A DNA stretch of 20,654 nt from positions 1 through 20,654 of the IMG/VR virus record IMGVR_UViG_3300028283_000214, one strand, 5' to 3'. The notes under the pieces are model-generated. The model ran no database searches. It was not told the origin of the DNA and saw only the letters and a list, made by a program, of their open reading frames with translations. This DNA is from a virus. Position 1 is the stretch's first letter. Each line of letters opens with the position of its first letter. Below, piece after piece: positions 4,478 through 19,410 of the stretch. The position numbers and the translations under genes are program-made.

Positions 4478-5551
4478 ATGAAAATATTCAAGAAATTAAA
4501 AACGTTCGAAAATTATGAAAGTGGAGAAATTAAAGCCACTCCTAAAACTGATAAAGTTTCTGATGAAGTAATTAATAATAAAATAAAAGAAGTAGTGGCT
4601 AATATACTTAAAACAAAAGAGTATTTTATGTTACTTCAAGATACTGCAGAACACGTATATGAGATGATTGAAAAACAAATACCACCAAACGTAGACGCTT
4701 TTGCCAACTCTCTATCAGAAAAAGACAAAATGTTGGGAGGATTAGTTGATGATTTATTAGATCTATTAGATAATTCTAATACTCTAACTGAATTAGATGA
4801 AATTGTTATGGTGTTAAGAAACATAGATCAATATACAGAAGATAATATGGACGATATACTTAAAGGACTTGGTGATGACGATGATGATGACGACGATGAC
4901 GATGATATAGGAAATGGTGACGAACATATTTGTCCTAAATGTGAAGGAACAGGTGAAAATAAAAATGGTGAAGTATGTGACGCCTGTGATGGCACTGGAT
5001 TTAAACCAGAATACGACGAAGAAGAAGACGAAGATGAAGACGACGATGACGATGATTATGTCGAAATAATGCAACCTAAAAAAAAAGGTAAACTAGAAGA
5101 CGACGATTCTAAAGATCAATTCGTTGATGATATAAAAGAAGATGAAGATCAACTAGAAAGAAAACCTAAAAAATTAGGTGAATCTAAAAAGCCAATGAGT
5201 GATTTAGAGAGAAAGATCAAATCTTTTGCCGAACAAAATAAACCAAAAGTGGAACCTAAAAAAGAGGAGCCAAAGAAGGAAGAAAGTAAGGATAAATTTA
5301 AAAAAGGCGACGTCGTTTATATAGGAGGAATAAAGGGACACGCCATCAAATATAATGGTAAAAAATGTACAGTAGTACAAAAAGGTGAAGAAGATACGTA
5401 CGATCTACACGACCCATCAAGTAAGGTGGCTGGTGTAAATATACAGGGAATGCCTGAAAAATATATGTCTAAAGAACCTTTTCCAGAAAAACCAGAACCT
5501 GTAAAAAGGGCAGTAAAACCAAGAGCAGTTAGAAAGAAAAAAGATGAATAA
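4478..5551 (+). CDS. Acidic tagged protein with DnaJ-like zinc motif and KOW-like domain
   Basis: 357 aa. Layout: N-terminal tag FKKLKTFENYESGE (4-17); a helical domain (about 34-127) that is paralogous to the next protein; an Asp run (133-143); two CxxCxGxG motifs, CPKCEGTG (152-159) and CDACDGTG (167-174), as in the DnaJ central zinc domain; a second acidic run (179-194); Lys/Glu-rich linkers; a small SH3/KOW-like domain (about 273-311, FKKGDVVYIGG to YDLHD); and a basic, Pro-rich C-terminus. Alternating very acidic and basic stretches suggest a scaffold or a DNA- or protein-binding virion component. Its last 8 bases overlap the next gene. The function is unknown; packaging is inferred from the tag. 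Confidence 0.75.
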   Translation: MKIFKKLKTFENYESGEIKATPKTDKVSDEVINNKIKEVVANILKTKEYFMLLQDTAEHVYEMIEKQIPPNVDAFANSLSEKDKMLGGLVDDLLDLLDNSNTLTELDEIVMVLRNIDQYTEDNMDDILKGLGDDDDDDDDDDDIGNGDEHICPKCEGTGENKNGEVCDACDGTGFKPEYDEEEDEDEDDDDDDYVEIMQPKKKGKLEDDDSKDQFVDDIKEDEDQLERKPKKLGESKKPMSDLERKIKSFAEQNKPKVEPKKEEPKKEESKDKFKKGDVVYIGGIKGHAIKYNGKKCTVVQKGEEDTYDLHDPSSKVAGVNIQGMPEKYMSKEPFPEKPEPVKRAVKPRAVRKKKDE

Positions 5552-5903
5552 ACTAAAAACATATAAAACTTTCGAGACACATATCATCAGAGATGAAAAT
5601 GTTGATATAAACTACGAAAATAAAATTGATAAAATCATGGAAGCTCTTTTGGAACAAAAGGTACTCGTACAAATGCTCGGTGATACTATTAATCACGTTA
5701 GTAAAGCTATCGAAAAAGTATTACCAGAACCTCTTGAAGATTTTATGACGGATTTACATCATTACGACGAAGAAATATTCAATTGTATAGACGATATACA
5801 AGAAAAAATTATAAACGGAATGCCTAATATCAAAGATATGATTGAAGATGTAGAACACGATTTTAATATGATTGAAAATTATTTAAAAATGAAAGATGAA
5901 TAA
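5544..5903 (+). CDS. Helical tagged protein, paralogue of the preceding gene's domain
   Basis: 119 aa. The N-terminus LKTYKTFETH carries the shared tag. Residues 26-112 align with residues 34-122 of the upstream 357-aa protein: NKI near the start, then L-DT--HV---IEK--P, then a DD pair and a final helix ending in a Tyr about ten residues before the end. It lacks the zinc motif and the acidic and KOW-like parts. It is mostly alpha-helical by composition. The start overlaps the upstream stop (GATGAATAA), typical of translational coupling. No named family is recognised; it probably interacts with the same partner as its paralogue. Confidence 0.75.
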   Translation: MNKLKTYKTFETHIIRDENVDINYENKIDKIMEALLEQKVLVQMLGDTINHVSKAIEKVLPEPLEDFMTDLHHYDEEIFNCIDDIQEKIINGMPNIKDMIEDVEHDFNMIENYLKMKDE

Positions 5904-5921
5904 AAAATAATTAAAAATAAA

Positions 5922-6188
5922 ATGGGTAAAAATATAAATACATCATTCGACAAGTTTGTAAACGAAGGGTTCTTAAGAGCTAAAAAAGAATTATCCCCAG
6001 ACGAAGAATACAAGAAACAACACGCTAAACAAGAAAAAGAAAAAGCAGCGATGCTTAAAAAAGGAAAAAAAGATAATAAAGTAAGTTCTAGCGATCCTTA
6101 CGGTGAAGAAGAACAAGACGATAAAAAAGAAAAAGCCGCAGCCAAAAAAGCCGCAGCCGCAGATAAACGCGCAGCAAGTAGAAAATAA
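5922..6188 (+). CDS. Small Lys/Ala-rich tagged protein
   Basis: 88 aa. It starts with NTSFDKFVNEGF, a good match to the shared tag, including a V-N-E-G step that resembles a T4 prohead-protease site. The rest is low-complexity and highly charged: a Lys/Glu helix (about 20-50), the short motif DPYGEE (58-63), and a Lys/Ala tail (about 68-88). Size, basic tail and N-terminal tag resemble T4 internal proteins that are packaged with DNA and ejected into the host, but there is no sequence family evidence. One base separates its stop from the next ATG. Confidence 0.7.
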   Translation: MGKNINTSFDKFVNEGFLRAKKELSPDEEYKKQHAKQEKEKAAMLKKGKKDNKVSSSDPYGEEEQDDKKEKAAAKKAAAADKRAASRK

Positions 6189-6189
6189 C

Positions 6190-6630
6190 ATGATAACCAA
6201 ATTTAATAAATATGATAAAGTTTTTGAGAGTCTGCCCAGACAATCAACTGTGGACCAACTTCATAGAATAAGAGATGAAATTAAGAAATCTCAAGTTATA
6301 AAAGTTGGACCAGATGAATCTAGTATGGGTGGTGATATTGGTGATAGAGTAATGCAAGATTTAAAAAAACATCAAATGAATAATTTGTTCTTTTGGGATA
6401 ATCCTCTTGACAGGCATATAGATTCTTACGAAACATTTGTGCAAGATGACTCAAGAGATAGTTTAGGATATACCAAAGATGGTGATCCAAAGAAACATAA
6501 AGGAACTGATTACGTAAAAGAAGGTAAATTTTCTTTTGAAGAATGGAAGAAGAAACATAAATGGATACAAAAGAAAGAAGTAGATGAAGAAGAAAAGGTT
6601 GTTGATTCCAGAGTTAGATCCTTACGGTGA
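6190..6630 (+). CDS. Tagged hydrophilic protein, unknown; possible frameshift near 3' end
   Basis: 146 aa from the ATG at 6190, chosen because it lies one base after the upstream stop and gives a tag-like N-terminus, TKFNKYDKVFESL. The longer frame from 6103 would overlap the upstream gene almost fully with Lys/Pro-rich shadow sequence. The body is hydrophilic and partly helical, with no known domain. The end reads DSRVRSLR, stop, while a second frame over the same bases continues as PELDPYGEEIWDDN, a motif found in two other proteins of this window. An indel near 6595-6620 would join the two, so the C-terminus given here may be wrong. Confidence 0.65.
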   Translation: MITKFNKYDKVFESLPRQSTVDQLHRIRDEIKKSQVIKVGPDESSMGGDIGDRVMQDLKKHQMNNLFFWDNPLDRHIDSYETFVQDDSRDSLGYTKDGDPKKHKGTDYVKEGKFSFEEWKKKHKWIQKKEVDEEEKVVDSRVRSLR

Positions 6631-6736
6631 AGAAATTTGGGATGATAATAGAACCAAATATGATTGGAATGAAATAAGGCAACAAAGATATTACAAAAAA
6701 ATAAACCTGTTAAGATGGATAAATTTAATAACTTAA
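6584..6736 (+). CDS. Overlapping alternative-frame ORF carrying DPYGEEIW motif
   Basis: 50 aa starting at an ATG inside the 3' end of the upstream gene and ending inside the start of the next gene. It reads LDPYGEEIWDDN, then RTKYDWNEIRQQRYYKK. The same DPYGEE(I/V)WD-N pattern occurs in the 670-aa protein (residues 362-372) and DPYGEE occurs in the 88-aa protein, so these codons are probably translated. It is either the true C-terminus of the upstream gene reached by a frameshift or sequencing error, or a separate small overlapping gene. Confidence 0.4.
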   Translation: MKKKRLLIPELDPYGEEIWDDNRTKYDWNEIRQQRYYKKINLLRWINLIT

Positions 6737-7278
6737 AAACATATGAAGAATATAGAAATTTTCACGTTGCCACTGGTTGGGAAACAGAACAAGGTGAAGA
6801 AAATGTTGAAAGAAGTCAAAGTAGGAGCGCAAGAAAAGATCCGAACGAACCATTCTTCAATAAGAATAAAAAAGAATATTACAAAGGTAAAGCTAGGGAA
6901 TTTAGAACTAAAGAATATCAAAAGATCTATGATGATCAGGAAAAATTTCTTACAAATAAAATAAAACATCTAAAAGAAATTGCTGATCTAGCCACAGAAG
7001 ATAATATTATGAAGGTAAAAGGTAAAAGTAAATTAATAAAAATTTTGTTAAAAGACGGAACTAGATTACAAGTTGATAGTAAATATTATACATACGTTGC
7101 TATAAATGTTAATCAACAAAACGAGAAAGAATACAATGAACTTTATGATAGGTTTGGTGGATATGATATTAAAAGAACTGAGATAATAGACACTCTAATG
7201 AGCGATTATAATTCCGTTTTAAAAGAAACTGCTAGAAAATTTGCTGAAATTGCAAATAAAAGAGATATAGTATTTTAA
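6715..7278 (+). CDS. Tagged helical protein, unknown
   Basis: 187 aa. The N-terminus FNNLKTYEEYRNFH carries the shared tag, followed by a Ser/Arg/Glu-rich, probably disordered segment (about 25-60). Residues 60-100 are predicted helical and highly charged. A small beta segment, SKLIKILLKDGTRLQVDSKYYTYVAI, split at about residues 105-130, is followed by two helices to the end. No catalytic or metal-binding pattern is visible and no family is recognised. It sits mid-block among tagged genes with short spacers, so a virion or assembly role is inferred by association. Confidence 0.7.
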   Translation: MDKFNNLKTYEEYRNFHVATGWETEQGEENVERSQSRSARKDPNEPFFNKNKKEYYKGKAREFRTKEYQKIYDDQEKFLTNKIKHLKEIADLATEDNIMKVKGKSKLIKILLKDGTRLQVDSKYYTYVAINVNQQNEKEYNELYDRFGGYDIKRTEIIDTLMSDYNSVLKETARKFAEIANKRDIVF

Positions 7279-7296
7279 AAAAATAAATAAAACAAA

Positions 7297-8091
7297 ATGA
7301 TAAAAAGATTCAATAATTTCGTAAAAGAAAGCGTCGAAAATAAAGGTAAAGGTGTAGGCGGTGATACCGATCTATTTCCTAAAGCTCCATTGAAACAAAC
7401 CATAAATAGAGCTATTCCAACTATGGACTTCCTCCGTATTGGTAAACATATTTTAACGAAAAAAATAGACGGTTTCATCGACAGCGTTCAAAACGAAAGT
7501 ATCTATATAACTGATAGAATGACTGGTGAGATCAAAAAATATACCTTAAAAGAAGTTCTTAAAGAACTCACACAGAAGAAAGATGATAAACCAGGTTCTT
7601 CTACTGTTCAAGGTTTTGAAGGTACACCAGCTTGGGCAACTAAACAGAAGATATATGAATCTTTTGACGACGAATATGAGCCCGAAAGAGAAAGAGAACT
7701 AGATCCAGATGAAGTAGAAGTTGCTGAAGAGCAAGATCTAGAATACGGAGATGAGGAAGAGCCAGAAGAAATAGAAAGAGGCACTGATGAGGAAGAAGAC
7801 GCCGATGAAGAAAATCCTGATACAAAGAGTATGTTAAGAGGACTTAACTCAAATAAAATTCGTTTTGGCACAGAAGATAATCCCGAAGGACTTCCAAATA
7901 AAGGAAATAAAAGAGATATGCCAAATGAAAGTTGGGTTAATTATTGGGATAGTTTCAACCAAAAACAAGTAAAACTTGTAACTGAAGATCTCGAAGAAAC
8001 GGAAGAAGAAGACGAAGTTAAAATCGTTAGGGGTACAGAAGATAATCCAATTCCAGAAAGAAAAAAAACTAAAATAGAAAGCTATGAATAA
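7297..8091 (+). CDS. Tagged acidic protein with KOW/SH3-like segment
   Basis: 264 aa. The N-terminus IKRFNNFVKESVE is one of the clearest copies of the shared tag. A small beta domain (about 45-90) contains KKIDGFIDSVQNESIYITDR and GEIKKYTLKEV, resembling a KOW/SH3-like barrel. Residues 120-180 are extremely acidic. The C-terminal part repeats a short element: FGTEDNPEGLP (190-200) and RGTEDNPIPER (246-256), with an RGTDEEED variant in between. The last 8 bases overlap the next gene. No function can be assigned; acidic, disordered and tagged proteins of this kind fit scaffold-core or internal virion components. Confidence 0.7.
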   Translation: MIKRFNNFVKESVENKGKGVGGDTDLFPKAPLKQTINRAIPTMDFLRIGKHILTKKIDGFIDSVQNESIYITDRMTGEIKKYTLKEVLKELTQKKDDKPGSSTVQGFEGTPAWATKQKIYESFDDEYEPERERELDPDEVEVAEEQDLEYGDEEEPEEIERGTDEEEDADEENPDTKSMLRGLNSNKIRFGTEDNPEGLPNKGNKRDMPNESWVNYWDSFNQKQVKLVTEDLEETEEEDEVKIVRGTEDNPIPERKKTKIESYE

Positions 8092-8722
8092 TTTAAAGAA
8101 AAGAGATCAATATATTCAAGAAGAACTAAAACCTTGGAGCGACCACGATAGTTCTTTGAGCGGAGAAGAATCTGGAAACTTTAGTATAAAAGGATTTAAA
8201 GGAAATAGTTATAACGATAGTTTCGATGAACCAGATACTGAAAGAGCTAAAAAGTTTAGAGAAAGATACATGAAACCAAAATCCGCCGACGAGATGATTT
8301 CTATTGAAAAAGCAAAAAACAAGGCATGGGAAGCTTGGGTGGAAGTTTGTAAAAGATGGGCGGAAGACGAAGGATGGAAAACTGACGATATACCAGATGA
8401 TAGAATGAAAAAAGAGTTTGAAGACTGGTGGAATGAAAATAATTTCGGTTCAGAATATAAAGGTGAGCCTGATGAAAATGGTTGGTTGGATCAAGCTGGA
8501 ATGGGAATGTCTGCAAATAGAAAGATTGGACCAGAAGATGGTATGCACGAAAATATGCTCCCAAAACCTTATAAGAAAGTCAAATGTGCTGAATGTGGCG
8601 AAGAAGTTTGTGATAATATAAACTTTAAAATCGGACATTTATATAATAGACATAATTGCAAACCTAGTGTCGGTGATTATAAAGCCAGAAGAATGATGGT
8701 TCAATATTTTCCACCAAAATAA
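8084..8722 (+). CDS. Protein with C-terminal zinc finger, end of tagged block
   Basis: 212 aa. The N-terminus NNLKKRDQYIQEEL is a weak version of the shared tag. A disordered Ser/Gly/Asp segment (about 18-55) precedes a Trp-rich helical region (AWEAWVEVCKRWAEDEGW, 81-98, and FEDWWNENNFG). The C-terminal zinc site is KCAECGEEVCDN (167-178), then HLYNRHNC (185-192), giving C168, C171 and H185/H190 or C192 as likely ligands. A strong terminator follows, so this is the last gene of the + strand block. The family is not recognised; nucleic-acid or protein binding through the finger is inferred. Confidence 0.7.
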   Translation: MNNLKKRDQYIQEELKPWSDHDSSLSGEESGNFSIKGFKGNSYNDSFDEPDTERAKKFRERYMKPKSADEMISIEKAKNKAWEAWVEVCKRWAEDEGWKTDDIPDDRMKKEFEDWWNENNFGSEYKGEPDENGWLDQAGMGMSANRKIGPEDGMHENMLPKPYKKVKCAECGEEVCDNINFKIGHLYNRHNCKPSVGDYKARRMMVQYFPPK

Positions 8723-10107: not shown

Positions 10108-11622
10108 ATGATCGTTGATTATGAATTTAAAAATAAAAAACTTATGGTTTCATATGTATCCGATGGTGGTTGGATAAAAATGAAATATTACGATTGGCCT
10201 AATCCGTCTAAATATGTTGTCTGTTCTGAAGACGATAGAGATAAAGATGGTAGATATGTAACTTGGGACGGATTTAGTGTGAAATCTGTATATACAAGAT
10301 ACCCAGATAGATATTGTGTCTACGACTACCTTGATAACCTCCCACAAGAAGAACAAGATATTCTTTTTAAATACGTTGAGCCAGAAATATTCTTCGTTGA
10401 TATCGAGAACGAAATCCTTGATAAGAAACCTCAACCACACTTAGCCGAAAGTGCTGTACAATCTATATCCATTGTTACAAAGAATAAAGTACTTGTTATG
10501 GGTGTTGACGCACTTTCACAAGACCAAGAAAAATCTATTAAAGAAGATATAAACAATTACTTCGCTAAATTCAACGCTGACTACGATTTCAAATTCATTA
10601 GATATAAAAATGAATACGAAATGTTACTCAATTTCTTTGAGAAATATGTACCTAAAATGCCAGTCATCACTGGTTGGAATTTTACAGAATACGATTGGGT
10701 ATTCCTTACTAATAGAGCTAGAAAGATTGGTGTAGATCCGTCATCAGCATCAAATACAAGATTACTTCGCCAACCATTTAAAAGAAATAATAAAAACGGT
10801 AAAGAAATTATATCTTATTGTGAATTACCAGCACACAGACTTGTGGTTGACTATATGGAGCTTTATGATAAGTGGAACACTACTATCAAAGTAAAGGAAG
10901 CCAGCAGTCTTGATTTTGTTTCTGATGGTATTCTTGGGGTTAAGAAAGTAAACTACGAAGGTTCACTTAAAACTCTTGCTGCTTCTGATTACAAGAAATT
11001 CGTTTTCTACAACGCTGTAGATAGTATTCTTGTTCAAAAAATTCACGAGAAAACTAAATGGATTGATATTCTTTACGGTATTTCTACCCTTTCTAGAATC
11101 AAAACTCTCGACGCTTATTCAACTTTACCTGTTACAGAAGGTATATTAAGAAGAAAACTCAAAGAAGAAAAGAACGTCATTCTTTGTAGATTAGAGAAAT
11201 CATTACCAGATACAGTCATAGAAACAGCAGAAAAAGCAGTTAAAGGTGGATGGGTAAAAGATCCAGTAAAAGGTATGGGATATTGGGTAGCCTGCTACGA
11301 CTTCGCAAGTTTGTACCCTACATGTATGAGAATGTTCAATATATCAGCAGACTCGTATAAAGGTGTGCTGTCGCCCGCAAAGGACTTCGCTGTGTTTAAT
11401 GGTCATCGAATAGAACTAGAACCAACTGATATTAAACTACTTAATAATACTGTATTTAAGAACGAGACTGGTATAGTAAATCAAGTTATGACTGATATTT
11501 ATGGTGATAGAAAGAAGTTTAAAGGATTTATGAATAAGGATCACGATGAGTTGGAGGACTACAAGAGAATATTAAAGGCTGCAGAGGACGAGTTGATAAT
11601 GGAATTAGAATATAGTGATTAA
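10108..11622 (+). CDS. Family B DNA polymerase, N-terminal part (exonuclease and part of palm/fingers)
   Basis: 504 aa, T4 gp43-like. The 3'-5' exonuclease motifs are intact: Exo I FFVDIENE (D98, E100), Exo II GWNFTEYDW (N191, D196), Exo III YNAVDS (Y301, D305). KGGWV (379-383) and palm motif A CYDFASLYP (396-404, D398) follow. DRKKFKGFM (467-475) matches the start of the fingers helix with nucleotide-binding Arg/Lys. The frame then stops at residue 504, whereas T4 gp43 has about 900. Motif B (K-NS-YG) and motif C (DTDS) are absent and not found elsewhere in the window. This is half of a split polymerase whose other part lies elsewhere, or a truncated gene. The frame is otherwise undamaged, which favours a functional split. 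It is cotranscribed with RHH regulator B. Confidence 0.9.
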   Translation: MIVDYEFKNKKLMVSYVSDGGWIKMKYYDWPNPSKYVVCSEDDRDKDGRYVTWDGFSVKSVYTRYPDRYCVYDYLDNLPQEEQDILFKYVEPEIFFVDIENEILDKKPQPHLAESAVQSISIVTKNKVLVMGVDALSQDQEKSIKEDINNYFAKFNADYDFKFIRYKNEYEMLLNFFEKYVPKMPVITGWNFTEYDWVFLTNRARKIGVDPSSASNTRLLRQPFKRNNKNGKEIISYCELPAHRLVVDYMELYDKWNTTIKVKEASSLDFVSDGILGVKKVNYEGSLKTLAASDYKKFVFYNAVDSILVQKIHEKTKWIDILYGISTLSRIKTLDAYSTLPVTEGILRRKLKEEKNVILCRLEKSLPDTVIETAEKAVKGGWVKDPVKGMGYWVACYDFASLYPTCMRMFNISADSYKGVLSPAKDFAVFNGHRIELEPTDIKLLNNTVFKNETGIVNQVMTDIYGDRKKFKGFMNKDHDELEDYKRILKAAEDELIMELEYSD

Positions 11623-14771: not shown

Positions 14772-16784
14772 ATGAAAAGTTTAATATATAGTCACATGGA
14801 TCTATTATTGCAGGATAAGAATAAAATAGTTGATGTCGTTAATAATCTTAAACAGAATAAGCCCGAAGGCGGTGCCAATTTCTTTGATAGAATGGATGAG
14901 TTTGTTCGTGATCCTAAAAATGTAGATATGGTTTATCACCTCTTTGATAAAATAAGACAAGATCAAGGAACTAATTATAATCTTATACTTACTGGTAAAT
15001 TTGGCGATTGGATTTATAATCTTATAAAAACAGGTAAAATCAAAGTAACTGGTATAGTTATTCATGTTAGTGGTTCACTTAGAAGTAGTATTAAAAACAA
15101 AACTTTCCAAATAATAGGGGGAGATGAGAATAGAGTTTATAACAAGAATTTTGTATTACTAGATGATAGTTATTACTCTGGATCAACAAAGAAAGAAATA
15201 GATAAACATTTAGAAAAATATAAAGCTAAAATAATTAAAACTTATGTGTTTTACGATGGTAGCTTTCAAAAGAGATCTGATGTTTACGCAGTATATAGAT
15301 ATTACGATTATCATATGGACGATATACTTCCAGTTAAGAAACTGTTAAGTGTATTGAATAATATAGATGAGCAGAATATACCTTATGATATGCTTGAAAA
15401 TCAGATAATGAAGGGACAAATAAGGAGTATAAAAGAATTATTAAAAGAAATTCAATTATTAAAACAAAAATTTCAAAATGCTGGTTCGAATAAAGTTAAT
15501 ATTAAGTCTTATGGTTATAAGAGAGAATATGAAAAGAAAAAGATTAAAAAATATAAAGGGTTTTTAAATGAAAATCTTGGTGGATTTAAAACATTTGATG
15601 ATTTAGAATTTGATGAAGTTGATGATTTCAAAGGAGCTAAGAAGGCTAAAATGATCTTTGATAATGGATATAAAATTTCTGTTTTATTTGGTGATAAGTA
15701 TTATTCTAACGGTAAAGATACATATGAAGTAGCTTATATAACACCAGAAGGTAAATTAAGTAGTCCTATTGGTGGTTTAACTAAAGATGAAGTTACTGAT
15801 GAAATGATAGTTATCCAAGAAATGGAACCAAGAAAAAGAATAATTACACCTGAAGATCCTTATGGGGAAGAAGTTTGGGACACCAATGAGGCTTACGTTA
15901 AACAAAGATACGAACAAACATTCCTTGTATCACAGTTCTGGACCAAATATCTTAGAGAAGGAAGAAAAAGTGTAATAATCTTGTTAAGAGGTAGAGAAGT
16001 TGAATTTCACGCTAAATCTAAAGTTGAAACATATAAAGGATCTGTAAGTGGTTTAATGCCCGCTCTTTCAAAGAAACGTAACGAGGTAATGATTTTATTT
16101 GATACAAAGAAATATGGTGTTTTAGAAGTAGATAATAATTTTCCAATTGTAGTAAGAGAAAGACCTTTAAGTGAGGGTATTAAGTGGTATTCTAAAGGTA
16201 AATTAGGAGATGAGGAAGAACCTGAATTTAAAATTAACAGTAAATTTAAAGATGTAGGTGAAAATGATGTTGAATATAAAGGCATCATAATAAGACCTAA
16301 AAAACATTACGACACTTGGCAATATAATATCTATGTAAGAAATCCAAAATGGAAAAAAGTTAGAAATTATACAAATTTTGGAAGCGAAGAGGAAGCGATA
16401 CAAAAGGCTAAAAATTACATCGATGTGTGGGGATTTAGAATAGAAGACACTTATCCTGGTAATCTAATAGAAGAAGAAGTTAGATGGTATTCAAAGGGTA
16501 AATTGAGTGATAACGAACCTATGGAAGTTATAGAAAATACATTTAGTGTTGGTGATAGAGTGAAAATACAAAAAAAATCATGGTATTGGAACGATAAAGA
16601 TACACAAGAAGATAATAAAACTAGTGTTAATCATAGAGGTATATGGACAAAACATGATAGTGACGAAACTTATACTGTATTAAGAGTTGATTACGCTAAT
16701 AATATTGAGGGTTATACAGGTGAGGTTATTCAATTCAAAGAAGTGTGGCCATTCTTCCAAATTACTAATATGAAAAAAGTATGA
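14772..16784 (+). CDS. Phosphoribosyltransferase-like enzyme fused to a virion-type extension
   Basis: 670 aa. Residues 1-235 are a type I PRTase-like domain: LILTGKFGDWIYNLI, then TGIVIHVSG, then FVLLDDSYYSGST (127-139), the PRPP-binding loop with its Asp pair. Residues 255-271 (KKKIKKYKGFLNENLGG) look like the shared N-terminal tag in an internal position. The remaining 400 residues are hydrophilic small modules: DPYGEEVWDTN (362-372), a beta segment (398-460), and two copies of (I/V)(K/R)WYSKGKL-D (470-480 and 570-580) flanking another small alpha/beta unit. The end resembles an SH3-like domain (592-660). It overlaps the next gene by 4 bp (ATGA). The PRTase substrate is unknown. Confidence 0.8.
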   Translation: MKSLIYSHMDLLLQDKNKIVDVVNNLKQNKPEGGANFFDRMDEFVRDPKNVDMVYHLFDKIRQDQGTNYNLILTGKFGDWIYNLIKTGKIKVTGIVIHVSGSLRSSIKNKTFQIIGGDENRVYNKNFVLLDDSYYSGSTKKEIDKHLEKYKAKIIKTYVFYDGSFQKRSDVYAVYRYYDYHMDDILPVKKLLSVLNNIDEQNIPYDMLENQIMKGQIRSIKELLKEIQLLKQKFQNAGSNKVNIKSYGYKREYEKKKIKKYKGFLNENLGGFKTFDDLEFDEVDDFKGAKKAKMIFDNGYKISVLFGDKYYSNGKDTYEVAYITPEGKLSSPIGGLTKDEVTDEMIVIQEMEPRKRIITPEDPYGEEVWDTNEAYVKQRYEQTFLVSQFWTKYLREGRKSVIILLRGREVEFHAKSKVETYKGSVSGLMPALSKKRNEVMILFDTKKYGVLEVDNNFPIVVRERPLSEGIKWYSKGKLGDEEEPEFKINSKFKDVGENDVEYKGIIIRPKKHYDTWQYNIYVRNPKWKKVRNYTNFGSEEEAIQKAKNYIDVWGFRIEDTYPGNLIEEEVRWYSKGKLSDNEPMEVIENTFSVGDRVKIQKKSWYWNDKDTQEDNKTSVNHRGIWTKHDSDETYTVLRVDYANNIEGYTGEVIQFKEVWPFFQITNMKKV

Positions 16785-17578
16785 ACAAAAAACTAGAGAA
16801 ATACGTAGATGAACTACTTGATATGAGAGTTCAACCTGGCGATATTGCTGACGATAATATAGCTCTTTTTGTTGATTTCATTAACGCCATTTATCAAAAT
16901 AAAGAAGTAGCAGTCTTTACTTTTCCTTTCTTAGAAAGAATAGATGAATTCATAATCAGTCCAGATAATATGGATATGATTAGAAAAATGTTTGAAATCA
17001 TTGAAAAACAAGAAGGTAACGTTAATATAGTCTCATCTGGTAGTTTTGGATTGTGGATTTATCAACTCGTCGAAGAAGGTGAAATAGAATTTGATGGAAA
17101 TATAGTTATAGTCAGTGGTCAAATTAGAAAAGTAAAAGAAGATGAAGGCAATAAGATAATTATTCTTAAACAGAGACACGATATTGAAGATGAAGAATTT
17201 ATCTTTATGGATGATAGTTATTTTTCAGGTGGGACAAGAGATAAGATAAATGATTTCCTTAAAAAATTTGGATCTAAAATTACAAGGTCATTTGTGTTCT
17301 ATACACATAATCCTGAAAATCCAAAGAAAGTATATTCAAGTTATTGTTATTCTGAAAATCATATTGAAGAGATTATCCCAATTCATAGATATAGTGAATA
17401 CGTAAACACAGTGGATTTGAGCATCCACGAAGATATTATATGGGAAAAAATTTACAAAGATGAGTTAAAAGGTATTAAAGAATTATTAAGATATATAAAA
17501 ACACTAGAAGATAAAAACAAACTTACAGAAGGTTTTATTATAAAATATAAAAACTTCAAATTGAATGGAAAAGATTAA
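16781..17578 (+). CDS. Phosphoribosyltransferase-like protein, paralogue of upstream domain
   Basis: 265 aa. Aligns along its length with residues 1-260 of the upstream protein: FLERIDEFIISPDNMDMI against FDRMDEFVRDPKNVDMV, SSGSFGLWIYQLVEEGEI against LTGKFGDWIYNLIKTGKI, and the PRPP loop FIFMDDSYFSGGT (140-152). The C-terminus also ends in a tag-like segment, GFIIKYKNFKLNG (251-263), at the place where the larger paralogue continues into its extension. Start and stop overlap both neighbours (4 bp and 14 bp), so this is a translationally coupled three-gene unit with the HAD gene. Base-exchange activity on a nucleobase or nucleoside-like substrate is inferred; catalytic competence is not certain. 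Confidence 0.8.
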   Translation: MNKKLEKYVDELLDMRVQPGDIADDNIALFVDFINAIYQNKEVAVFTFPFLERIDEFIISPDNMDMIRKMFEIIEKQEGNVNIVSSGSFGLWIYQLVEEGEIEFDGNIVIVSGQIRKVKEDEGNKIIILKQRHDIEDEEFIFMDDSYFSGGTRDKINDFLKKFGSKITRSFVFYTHNPENPKKVYSSYCYSENHIEEIIPIHRYSEYVNTVDLSIHEDIIWEKIYKDELKGIKELLRYIKTLEDKNKLTEGFIIKYKNFKLNGKD

Positions 17579-18845: not shown

Positions 18846-19410
18846 CATTTGATTTCCCCCACCAAATTTCTCTATAATATTCAAACGCCATTTTAAATAA
18901 TTGGAGTGAAACAGCGTGCTCGAGACCAGGAATGATAAGTATTTCACCACCAGCAGCCTCAAAACCTTTTTGTTCTAAAAATCTAACAACAAGATGTGAG
19001 TCTACACCACCTTTATATTTCTTGTCTTCTGCACCAATGACCATGACTTGATCGCCATATATAGGAAGATTTTTATAATCTTCTGGTAATATTTGGAGAG
19101 TTGGGGCCTCACTTGAAGAAGCAATGGCTGGATTAAAATGAATCCCTTTTATTTTATATTTATTACAAAGATGAAAACCAGGGTGTCCACCAGCAGAATA
19201 ACCTATAATGAGATCAATATGTTCCTTTTCCACTATCTTTTCTAGATAAGGAAAAAGATAATCTCCCTCGTACCAATATATTTCAGGGTAAACTAATTGA
19301 TCCCCGAACATAGTGAACGTATCAATAAATCCTTGACTTTTCTCGAAAGGAAGTAGGTTATTTTGTTTGTCGCGCATCCAACACGATCCTGTAATAAACA
19401 TTACTTTCAT
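18808..19410 (-). CDS. Alpha/beta hydrolase
   Basis: 200 aa. The nucleophile elbow is LIIGYSAGGH (67-76) with S72. MVIGAEDK (123-130) supplies the region of the acid residue, and PGLEHAV (161-167) the likely catalytic H165. HFNPAIASS after the second strand is typical of YqiA-like esterases. The fold is small, with no cap domain. It begins within the stop of the upstream gene (4-bp overlap, ATGA). Its 3' end overlaps the convergent membrane protein gene. Esterase or thioesterase activity is likely; the substrate is unknown. Confidence 0.75.
   Translation of the reverse strand: MKVMFITGSCWMRDKQNNLLPFEKSQGFIDTFTMFGDQLVYPEIYWYEGDYLFPYLEKIVEKEHIDLIIGYSAGGHPGFHLCNKYKIKGIHFNPAIASSSEAPTLQILPEDYKNLPIYGDQVMVIGAEDKKYKGGVDSHLVVRFLEQKGFEAAGGEILIIPGLEHAVSLQLFKMAFEYYREIWWGKSNVNQSTELVESYA

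Follow-up and report, generated by a model that had tools for sequence, protein, structure and literature searches.

A T4-like N-terminal tag on more than one hundred Mahaphage proteins is probably a capsid-targeting sequence

Results

The window analysed here is the whole 20,654-nt stretch of IMG/VR virus record IMGVR_UViG_3300028283_000214 (positions 1 to 20,654), in which seven consecutive open reading frames (ORFs) on the plus strand encode proteins that begin with the same short tag. This tag is very probably a T4-type capsid-targeting sequence, by which cargo would dock on the scaffold core of the prohead, be freed by a protease inside the head and, in part, be ejected into the host. The window is a Mahaphage fragment and a close relative of the 735-kb genome LR756501: their DNA polymerases are 97.8% identical, and the plus strand of the window matches the minus strand of LR756501 at ∼80–101 kb. 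LR756501 comes from an uncultured phage and, with 735,411 bases, is reported to be the largest genome of the Mahaphage clade (PMC7162821). The Mahaphage set comprised LR756501 (W01), LR756504 (W02, 636 kb), LR756500 (W05, 462 kb) and fragments of two more genomes; Lak-A2, PAU, GAP32, S-PM2, PTm1 and T4 served as outgroups. Gene calls were made with a simple codon-usage caller built for this analysis and are not those of a published annotation.

The tag motif is far commoner at N-termini than inside proteins, which was the comparison on which the initial annotation of the window had staked its proposal. The plain pattern [ILVMF]K.[FY]..[FY] occurs near the N-terminus of 63 of the 869 LR756501 proteins, compared with 2.0 expected from the internal rate (P = 4.5e-71), and likewise in LR756504 (51/779, 1.2 expected) and LR756500 (18/584, 1.2 expected). 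Among the outgroups, Lak-A2 had 4/530 matches and PAU 0/274. Tags were also counted with a weight matrix at score 12, and the conservative null model consisted of shuffles that preserve the residue make-up at each N-terminal position. At this threshold, 116/908 proteins in LR756501, 76/805 in LR756504 and 41/612 in LR756500 were tagged, compared with 4.1, 3.8 and 0.3 in the shuffles. The LR756501-trained matrix also recovered 37/805 proteins in LR756504, 26/612 in LR756500 and 34/383 in the fragment W04, and showed little or no enrichment in Lak-A2 (4), PAU (0), GAP32 (1), S-PM2 (1) and PTm1 (2). The LR756501 orthologues of the window proteins are part of the matrix training set, a circularity that is harmless for the genome-wide enrichment because plain regular expressions and cross-genome matrix counts agree. 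The true number of carriers in LR756501 depends on the threshold and lies at ∼110 to 150; a looser threshold gives 194 proteins, of which some 40 are possibly chance matches under a stricter null.

As the initial annotation had noted for the window, the proteins behind the tag are otherwise mostly unrelated. In an all-against-all comparison, the bodies of the 194 loosely called LR756501 proteins fell into ∼164 families that have a short N-terminal leader in common, and the folds of the recognisable bodies differ. A blind alignment of 113 tagged proteins returned the consensus MxKxFxxFxxE and otherwise nothing notable. Tagged genes are clustered in LR756501 (34 adjacent pairs vs 14.7 expected) and come and go between close relatives, since the tagged genes at 86,178–86,786 and 81,403–81,972 of LR756501 have no counterpart at the syntenic window positions. 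When two tag spellings were searched at the DNA level in IMG/VR, ∼5% of neighbouring ORFs were also tagged among the matches listed; T4-type leaders are therefore common in uncultured phages, and it is the number of tagged proteins that distinguishes Mahaphages from the others.

The initial annotation had likened the tag to the leader of the T4 internal proteins. When the LR756501 matrix, which is blind to T4, was applied to the 234 T4 proteins, the top four were gp61.1, IPIII, IPII and IPI. The first of these, encoded by T4 gene 61.1 (18,966–19,130, locus L253), starts MKTFKEFIKED and outscores IPIII; from this leader, gp61.1 looks like an unrecognised T4 internal protein. Mutagenesis of the T4 leader showed that residues 4 and 7 direct targeting and residues 8 and 10 processing, and T4 gp21 cuts after L/I-X-E (PMC9026906). 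The Mahaphage tag is conserved at the same positions, 4, 7, 8 and 10. Phe or Tyr occupies positions 4 and 7 in most carriers of LR756501 and LR756500, and LR756504 also has Ile or Leu at position 4, in a longer MKY[LI]K form. To escape circularity in examining the cleavage motif, N-termini were picked on the targeting half alone. In LR756501, [LI]xE followed in 33/63 of these, compared with 9.7 in shuffles (maximum 18 in 500) and with 6% further downstream; in the relatives it followed in 16/51, 8/18 and 9/25. At the predicted cleavage site, P3 is mostly Ile, Leu or Val and P2 mostly Asn or Lys; what follows the Glu is in most cases Ser or Ala.

A capsid-targeting role calls for a gp21-like prohead protease, and one was located as the initial annotation had suggested: its His, Ser and Asp motifs align with those of T4 gp21, and its BLAST relatives are annotated prohead proteases. 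Peptidase S77 was found in all seven records first tested, at scores below the Pfam curated cut-off in the four largest genomes, and for this reason we base the homology on the alignment and the BLAST relatives. The PF03420 profile gave no match in the window, as expected for a 20-kb fragment. In LR756501, the portal (71,969–73,795), protease (73,913–76,336) and major capsid protein (76,415–78,166) genes adjoin the region equivalent to the window, and several tagged genes lie directly upstream of the portal (62,965–67,911). Portal and major capsid protein are of T4 type in all genomes tested. The major capsid proteins carry a cleavage-like site ahead of their conserved body (HQMNE/N, HQIHE/N, HSINE/N or HELYE/N, the slash marking the putative cut), which we predict to be cut by analogy with T4 gp23, whose known cleavage site FGSFLTE/A fits the tag core. 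Proteins in the scaffold position of two outgroup phages start in a tag-like manner (GAP32 185,204–186,331, MSKLDKFLNES; S-PM2 78,328–79,506, KFEEFASE).

The LR756501 protease (807 residues) is fused to a scaffold of ∼12 tandem repeats with a strict 14-residue period, e.g. DYSNYIAETLDKSIDFSEYIAENVDNT. The repeat reads Y-x-x-Y-[IVL]-A-E, and its core, [FY]xx[FY][ILV]xE, equals the core of the tag. The protease-scaffold has more copies of this core than any other protein, 14 in LR756501 and 11 in LR756504, the next highest proteins having 7 and 3. A 1691-aa tape-measure-like protein of LR756501 (21,458–26,533) has 7 core copies at a spacing of 58–61. IMG/VR contains 14 protease-scaffold relatives with repeats, 8 to 16 copies in each and all at 14-residue spacing, and in an alignment of relatives 50–88% identical to the reference, many repeats have an invariant Tyr, Tyr, Ala and Glu. 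Lak, PAU and PTm1 have neither scaffold repeats nor tags. An AlphaFold model of the protease-scaffold placed long helices across the repeats, with a mean predicted local distance difference test (pLDDT) score of 46 that is too poor to rely on. Given this shared core, tags may be mimics of a scaffold unit, and the recurrence of the core motif in the scaffold is an indirect hint that the leader may have affinity for the prohead core.

Only a minority of the tagged bodies are recognisable. These include a glutamyl-tRNA synthetase (GltX), dephospho-CoA kinase (CoaE), CCA-adding enzyme, deoxycytidylate deaminase and aldolase in LR756501, and an M42 peptidase, adenylate kinase, leucine-rich repeat (LRR) proteins and a PNK-phosphatase in LR756504 and LR756500. 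For two of these enzymes, the tags appear to be add-ons. GltX of LR756501 has ∼25 extra N-terminal residues, the enzyme proper beginning at residue 26–29 compared with residue 1 to 4 in several solved GltX chains, and in its LR756504 orthologue the leader has another spelling (KKDYSDFLKES). For CoaE, the LR756501 protein has the tag and the LR756500 protein does not. The untagged set contains replication, sugar-nucleotide and structural families, including DNA_pol_B, thymidylate synthase, GroEL and the portal. The expectation that the bodies would be basic and DNA-binding-like was not borne out: in LR756501 the mean net charge per residue was −0.036 for tagged proteins and −0.020 for the rest, and in the window a strongly acidic body follows three of the seven tags. 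Adjoining the head genes is a large paralogous family (LR756501 61,937–66,169, ∼18 copies; ∼15 in LR756504), many members of which are tagged. A model of this family (pLDDT 86) shows a disordered tag region; its matches to acetyltransferase-like folds are weak (best E 0.011, low template-modelling score), and its relatives are found in marine phages. PADLOC matches among the tagged proteins were for the most part to generic AAA ATPases, with one member in each case, and we claim no anti-defence role from them.

In the window, the tag was confirmed in all seven ORFs (LR756501 matrix scores 9.0–18.4), where the position-preserving null reaches a score of ≥9 in ∼2% of N-termini. The other called genes scored <5 at the N-terminus, with the sole exception of the gene at 16781 (9.4), probably by chance; neither the tail-fibre genes upstream nor the homing endonuclease, polymerase or remaining called genes have an N-terminal tag. 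Two points of the first alignment of the seven tags are corrected: the best register of ORFs 2 and 4 differs slightly, and the tag it had called weak, that of ORF 7, scores well. The tag had been placed at 4478–8130; it is present there and runs far past those coordinates. ORF 1 (4478–5551, 357 aa; tag LKTFENYESGE at 4496–4528, score 12.8) has an acidic body containing a zinc-like CxxC element and a stretch that resembles KOW/GroES, matches the DnaJ-zinc and GroES profiles weakly and lies in a locus with 90% DNA identity to LR756501. ORF 2 (5544–5903, 119 aa; MNKLKTYKTFE at 5544–5576, score 9.0) keeps its tag in the LR756501 orthologue, the residues directly after it being different. ORF 3 (5922–6188, 88 aa) carries NTSFDKFVNEG at 5937–5969 (score 11.7). 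ORF 4 (6190–6630, 146 aa as read; ITKFNKYDKVF at 6193–6225, score 11.3) truly starts at the ATG at 6190, not at the GTG at 6103; its LR756501 orthologue has 171 aa, and by alignment a one-base difference puts the window one frame off near 6610. ORF 5 (6715–7278, 187 aa; LKTYEEYRNFH at 6733–6765, score 12.9) is followed by ORF 6 (7297–8091, 264 aa; IKRFNNFVKES at 7300–7332, score 18.4), whose tag is the nearest of the seven to the T4 form and is identical in LR756501. ORF 7 (8084–8722, 212 aa) has LKKRDQYIQEE at 8093–8125 (score 13.2).

An internal copy of the tag, IKKYKGFLNEN (15543–15575, plus strand, score 19.8), occupies residues 258–268 of ORF 14772–16784. It sits between a phosphoribosyltransferase-like domain and a C-terminal KOW-like part, with no start codon there, and is retained in LR756501 (residue 250). 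This ORF is composite: the phosphoribosyltransferase-like domain is followed by IKKYKGFLNEN, DPYGEEVW and two WYSKGKL elements that precede KOW-like parts. The C-terminal end of its paralogue at 16781–17578 is a degraded tag (IIKYKNFKLNGKD). Elsewhere in the window, the T4-type DNA polymerase (10108–11622) looks split, with the exonuclease/N-terminal half only, likewise in PAU.

A second motif, DPYGEE (usually DPYGEExW), was found in 94 LR756501 proteins and three times on the plus strand of the window. In 41 of the 94 it lies within 12 residues of the C-terminus, often at the very end. The window copies are in ORF 3 (6093–6110), in ORF 14772–16784 (DPYGEEVW, 15855–15872) and at 6617–6634 (DPYGEEIW), the C-terminal tail of the ORF 4 orthologue in LR756501. 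Within 6190–6736 of the window, the one-base difference near 6610, a sequencing slip or a real frameshift, moves this last copy out of frame. A DNA element such as a promoter or mobile repeat was rejected, because all 109 of 109 DNA occurrences are in frame within genes and third codon positions vary; DPYGEE therefore exists as a motif at the protein level. Motif and tag are associated (36/116 tagged vs 58/792 untagged LR756501 proteins, P = 1.4e-11). DPYGEE occurs on contigs of LR756501-type phage and in none of the other genomes tested.

Discussion

We propose that the aromatic pair, residues 4 and 7 of the tag, docks tagged proteins on the prohead core. In Mahaphages this core would be built from the fused protease-scaffold protein with its row of ∼12 near-copies of the tag core, and a tag would probably be taken up by imitating one of these repeats. 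At maturation, the gp21-type protease would cleave tags, scaffold repeats and major capsid protein behind the Glu of [LI]-x-E, so freeing the cargo within the head and clearing the core. The cargo would then be sealed in with the DNA and, by analogy with T4, at least part of it would probably be ejected into the host. The initial proposal of a T4-type capsid-targeting sequence on a large set of proteins gains support from the blind retrieval of T4 proteins, the link between the targeting half and the gp21 motif, and the gp21-type protease, portal and major capsid protein. The cleavage-like sites in major capsid protein and scaffold and the outgroups without enrichment support it further.

The alternatives were weighed against this proposal. 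The shared segment could be a prohead-protease site with a generic helix and no targeting signal, so that the likeness of tag, repeat and capsid site stems from protease specificity alone. All three do end in [hydrophobic]-x-E, and T4 gp22 lacks the core motif. We consider this unlikely, because the strongest selection falls on the aromatic pair and the preceding Lys, upstream of the cut, LR756504 tags retain this part even without Glu10, and the aromatic positions in T4 are those required for targeting (PMC9026906). The tag might instead direct proteins elsewhere, to a phage nucleus, replication zone or membrane. Giant phages can build compartments, and the function of many tagged proteins is unknown; even so, localisation of this kind is very unlikely, given that the same motif marks known T4 internal head proteins and is coupled to the T4 protease motif, that DNA polymerase and portal checked by hand have no tag, and that DNA_pol_B, thymidylate synthase and GroEL are also untagged.

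Two further explanations were rejected as having hardly any probability. The N-termini could be alike by common descent, as one paralogous family with bodies diverged beyond recognition, and a large paralogous family does exist beside the head genes and elsewhere. The all-against-all body comparison speaks against this, with 164 families among 194 bodies, as do the unrelated folds (GltX, dephospho-CoA kinase, CCA-adding enzyme, deaminase, LRR, M42 peptidase) and the orthologues with and without a tag. Chance or the base composition of AT-rich, Lys-rich N-termini was also considered; Lys and Phe/Tyr are frequent in their proteomes, and loose thresholds match N-termini of unrelated phages too. 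Pattern, shuffle and cross-genome counts all dismiss it: position-preserving shuffles and Lak/PAU N-termini give ∼4 compared with the 116 seen, and the five outgroups scored at the same threshold stayed at 4 or fewer.

Several points count against a targeting and packaging role for the tag. Exact [LI]xE is missing in about half of the tags within the tested span, and a few matrix matches are false, e.g. an SMC-like homologue of gp46, in which KNFKSFG belongs to a strand of the protein itself. Gene starts are approximate because of the simple in-house caller. The presence of tagged proteins in the head and their cleavage are predicted from sequence, and we know of no precedent for the tagging of a glutamyl-tRNA synthetase. 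The likeness of tag and scaffold may reflect only a common protease site. T4 has tags, yet its gp22 has zero copies of the core, so that the hypothesis of scaffold mimicry does not extend to T4 and is confined to Mahaphages.

With about one in eight proteins tagged, more than 100 different proteins are probably inside the particle, and many may be delivered with the DNA. A bolder proposal, plausible but still somewhat doubtful, is that each tag is a scaffold unit of 14 residues that has strayed, a simple code placed on >100 unrelated genes, including a tRNA synthetase and further housekeeping enzymes, that the virion delivers a sizeable share of the proteome and that DPYGEExW is a second sorting code on an overlapping set. 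With the tag, likely head cargo can be picked out by its first 20 residues among the many anonymous genes of the largest known phages. The tag also gives an idea of the size of a giant phage's protein payload, and part of the translation machinery could arrive ready-made. The scaffold repeat is also a proposal for the binding partner of T4-type targeting sequences. The portability of the tag code makes it possible to trace, between close relatives, which genes were gained by adding a tag. We know of no cultured member of these phages and found no description of the tag in huge phages in the open-access literature.

The prohead core resembles that of T4 (gp22 and gp21) in that protease, scaffold, portal and major capsid genes form one module and the scaffold is rich in protease sites. 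It differs in the fusion of protease and scaffold into a single polypeptide and in the tandem repeats of 14 residues that make up the scaffold, with a core equal to that of the tag; T4 gp22 lacks a repeat of this kind. Tenacibaculum phage PTm1 has a similar fused protein, annotated as prohead core scaffolding protein and protease, but its scaffold lacks the core motif and the phage has no tag enrichment. In SPN3US and phiKZ (protease gp245/gp175), head proteins are cut after Glu and delivered into the host (PMC5694885), and the proposed Mahaphage cargo would be like these ejection proteins in being cut after Glu by a related protease. Their propeptides are mostly >100 residues long and end in A-X-E, in contrast to the ∼10–17 residues ending in [LI]-x-E of Mahaphages, so that no tag is a long propeptide of that type; the scaffold repeats do read [IVL]-A-E.

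The closest likeness is to the leader of T4 IPI, IPII and IPIII, with which the Mahaphage tag shares a 10-residue N-terminal form on non-homologous bodies, aromatics at positions 4 and 7, a hydrophobic residue at 8, Glu at 10 and a gp21-type protease. For the T-even phages together, the reported internal proteins number at least 10, and type IV restriction enzymes are blocked by IPI to IPIII (PMC12373910). Unlike the T4 leader, the Mahaphage leader may start up to ∼7 residues in and has occasional internal or C-terminal copies. Its carriers include several recognisable enzymes and have bodies that are not basic, in contrast to the T4 internal proteins, and where T4 has three carriers, a Mahaphage has more than 100.

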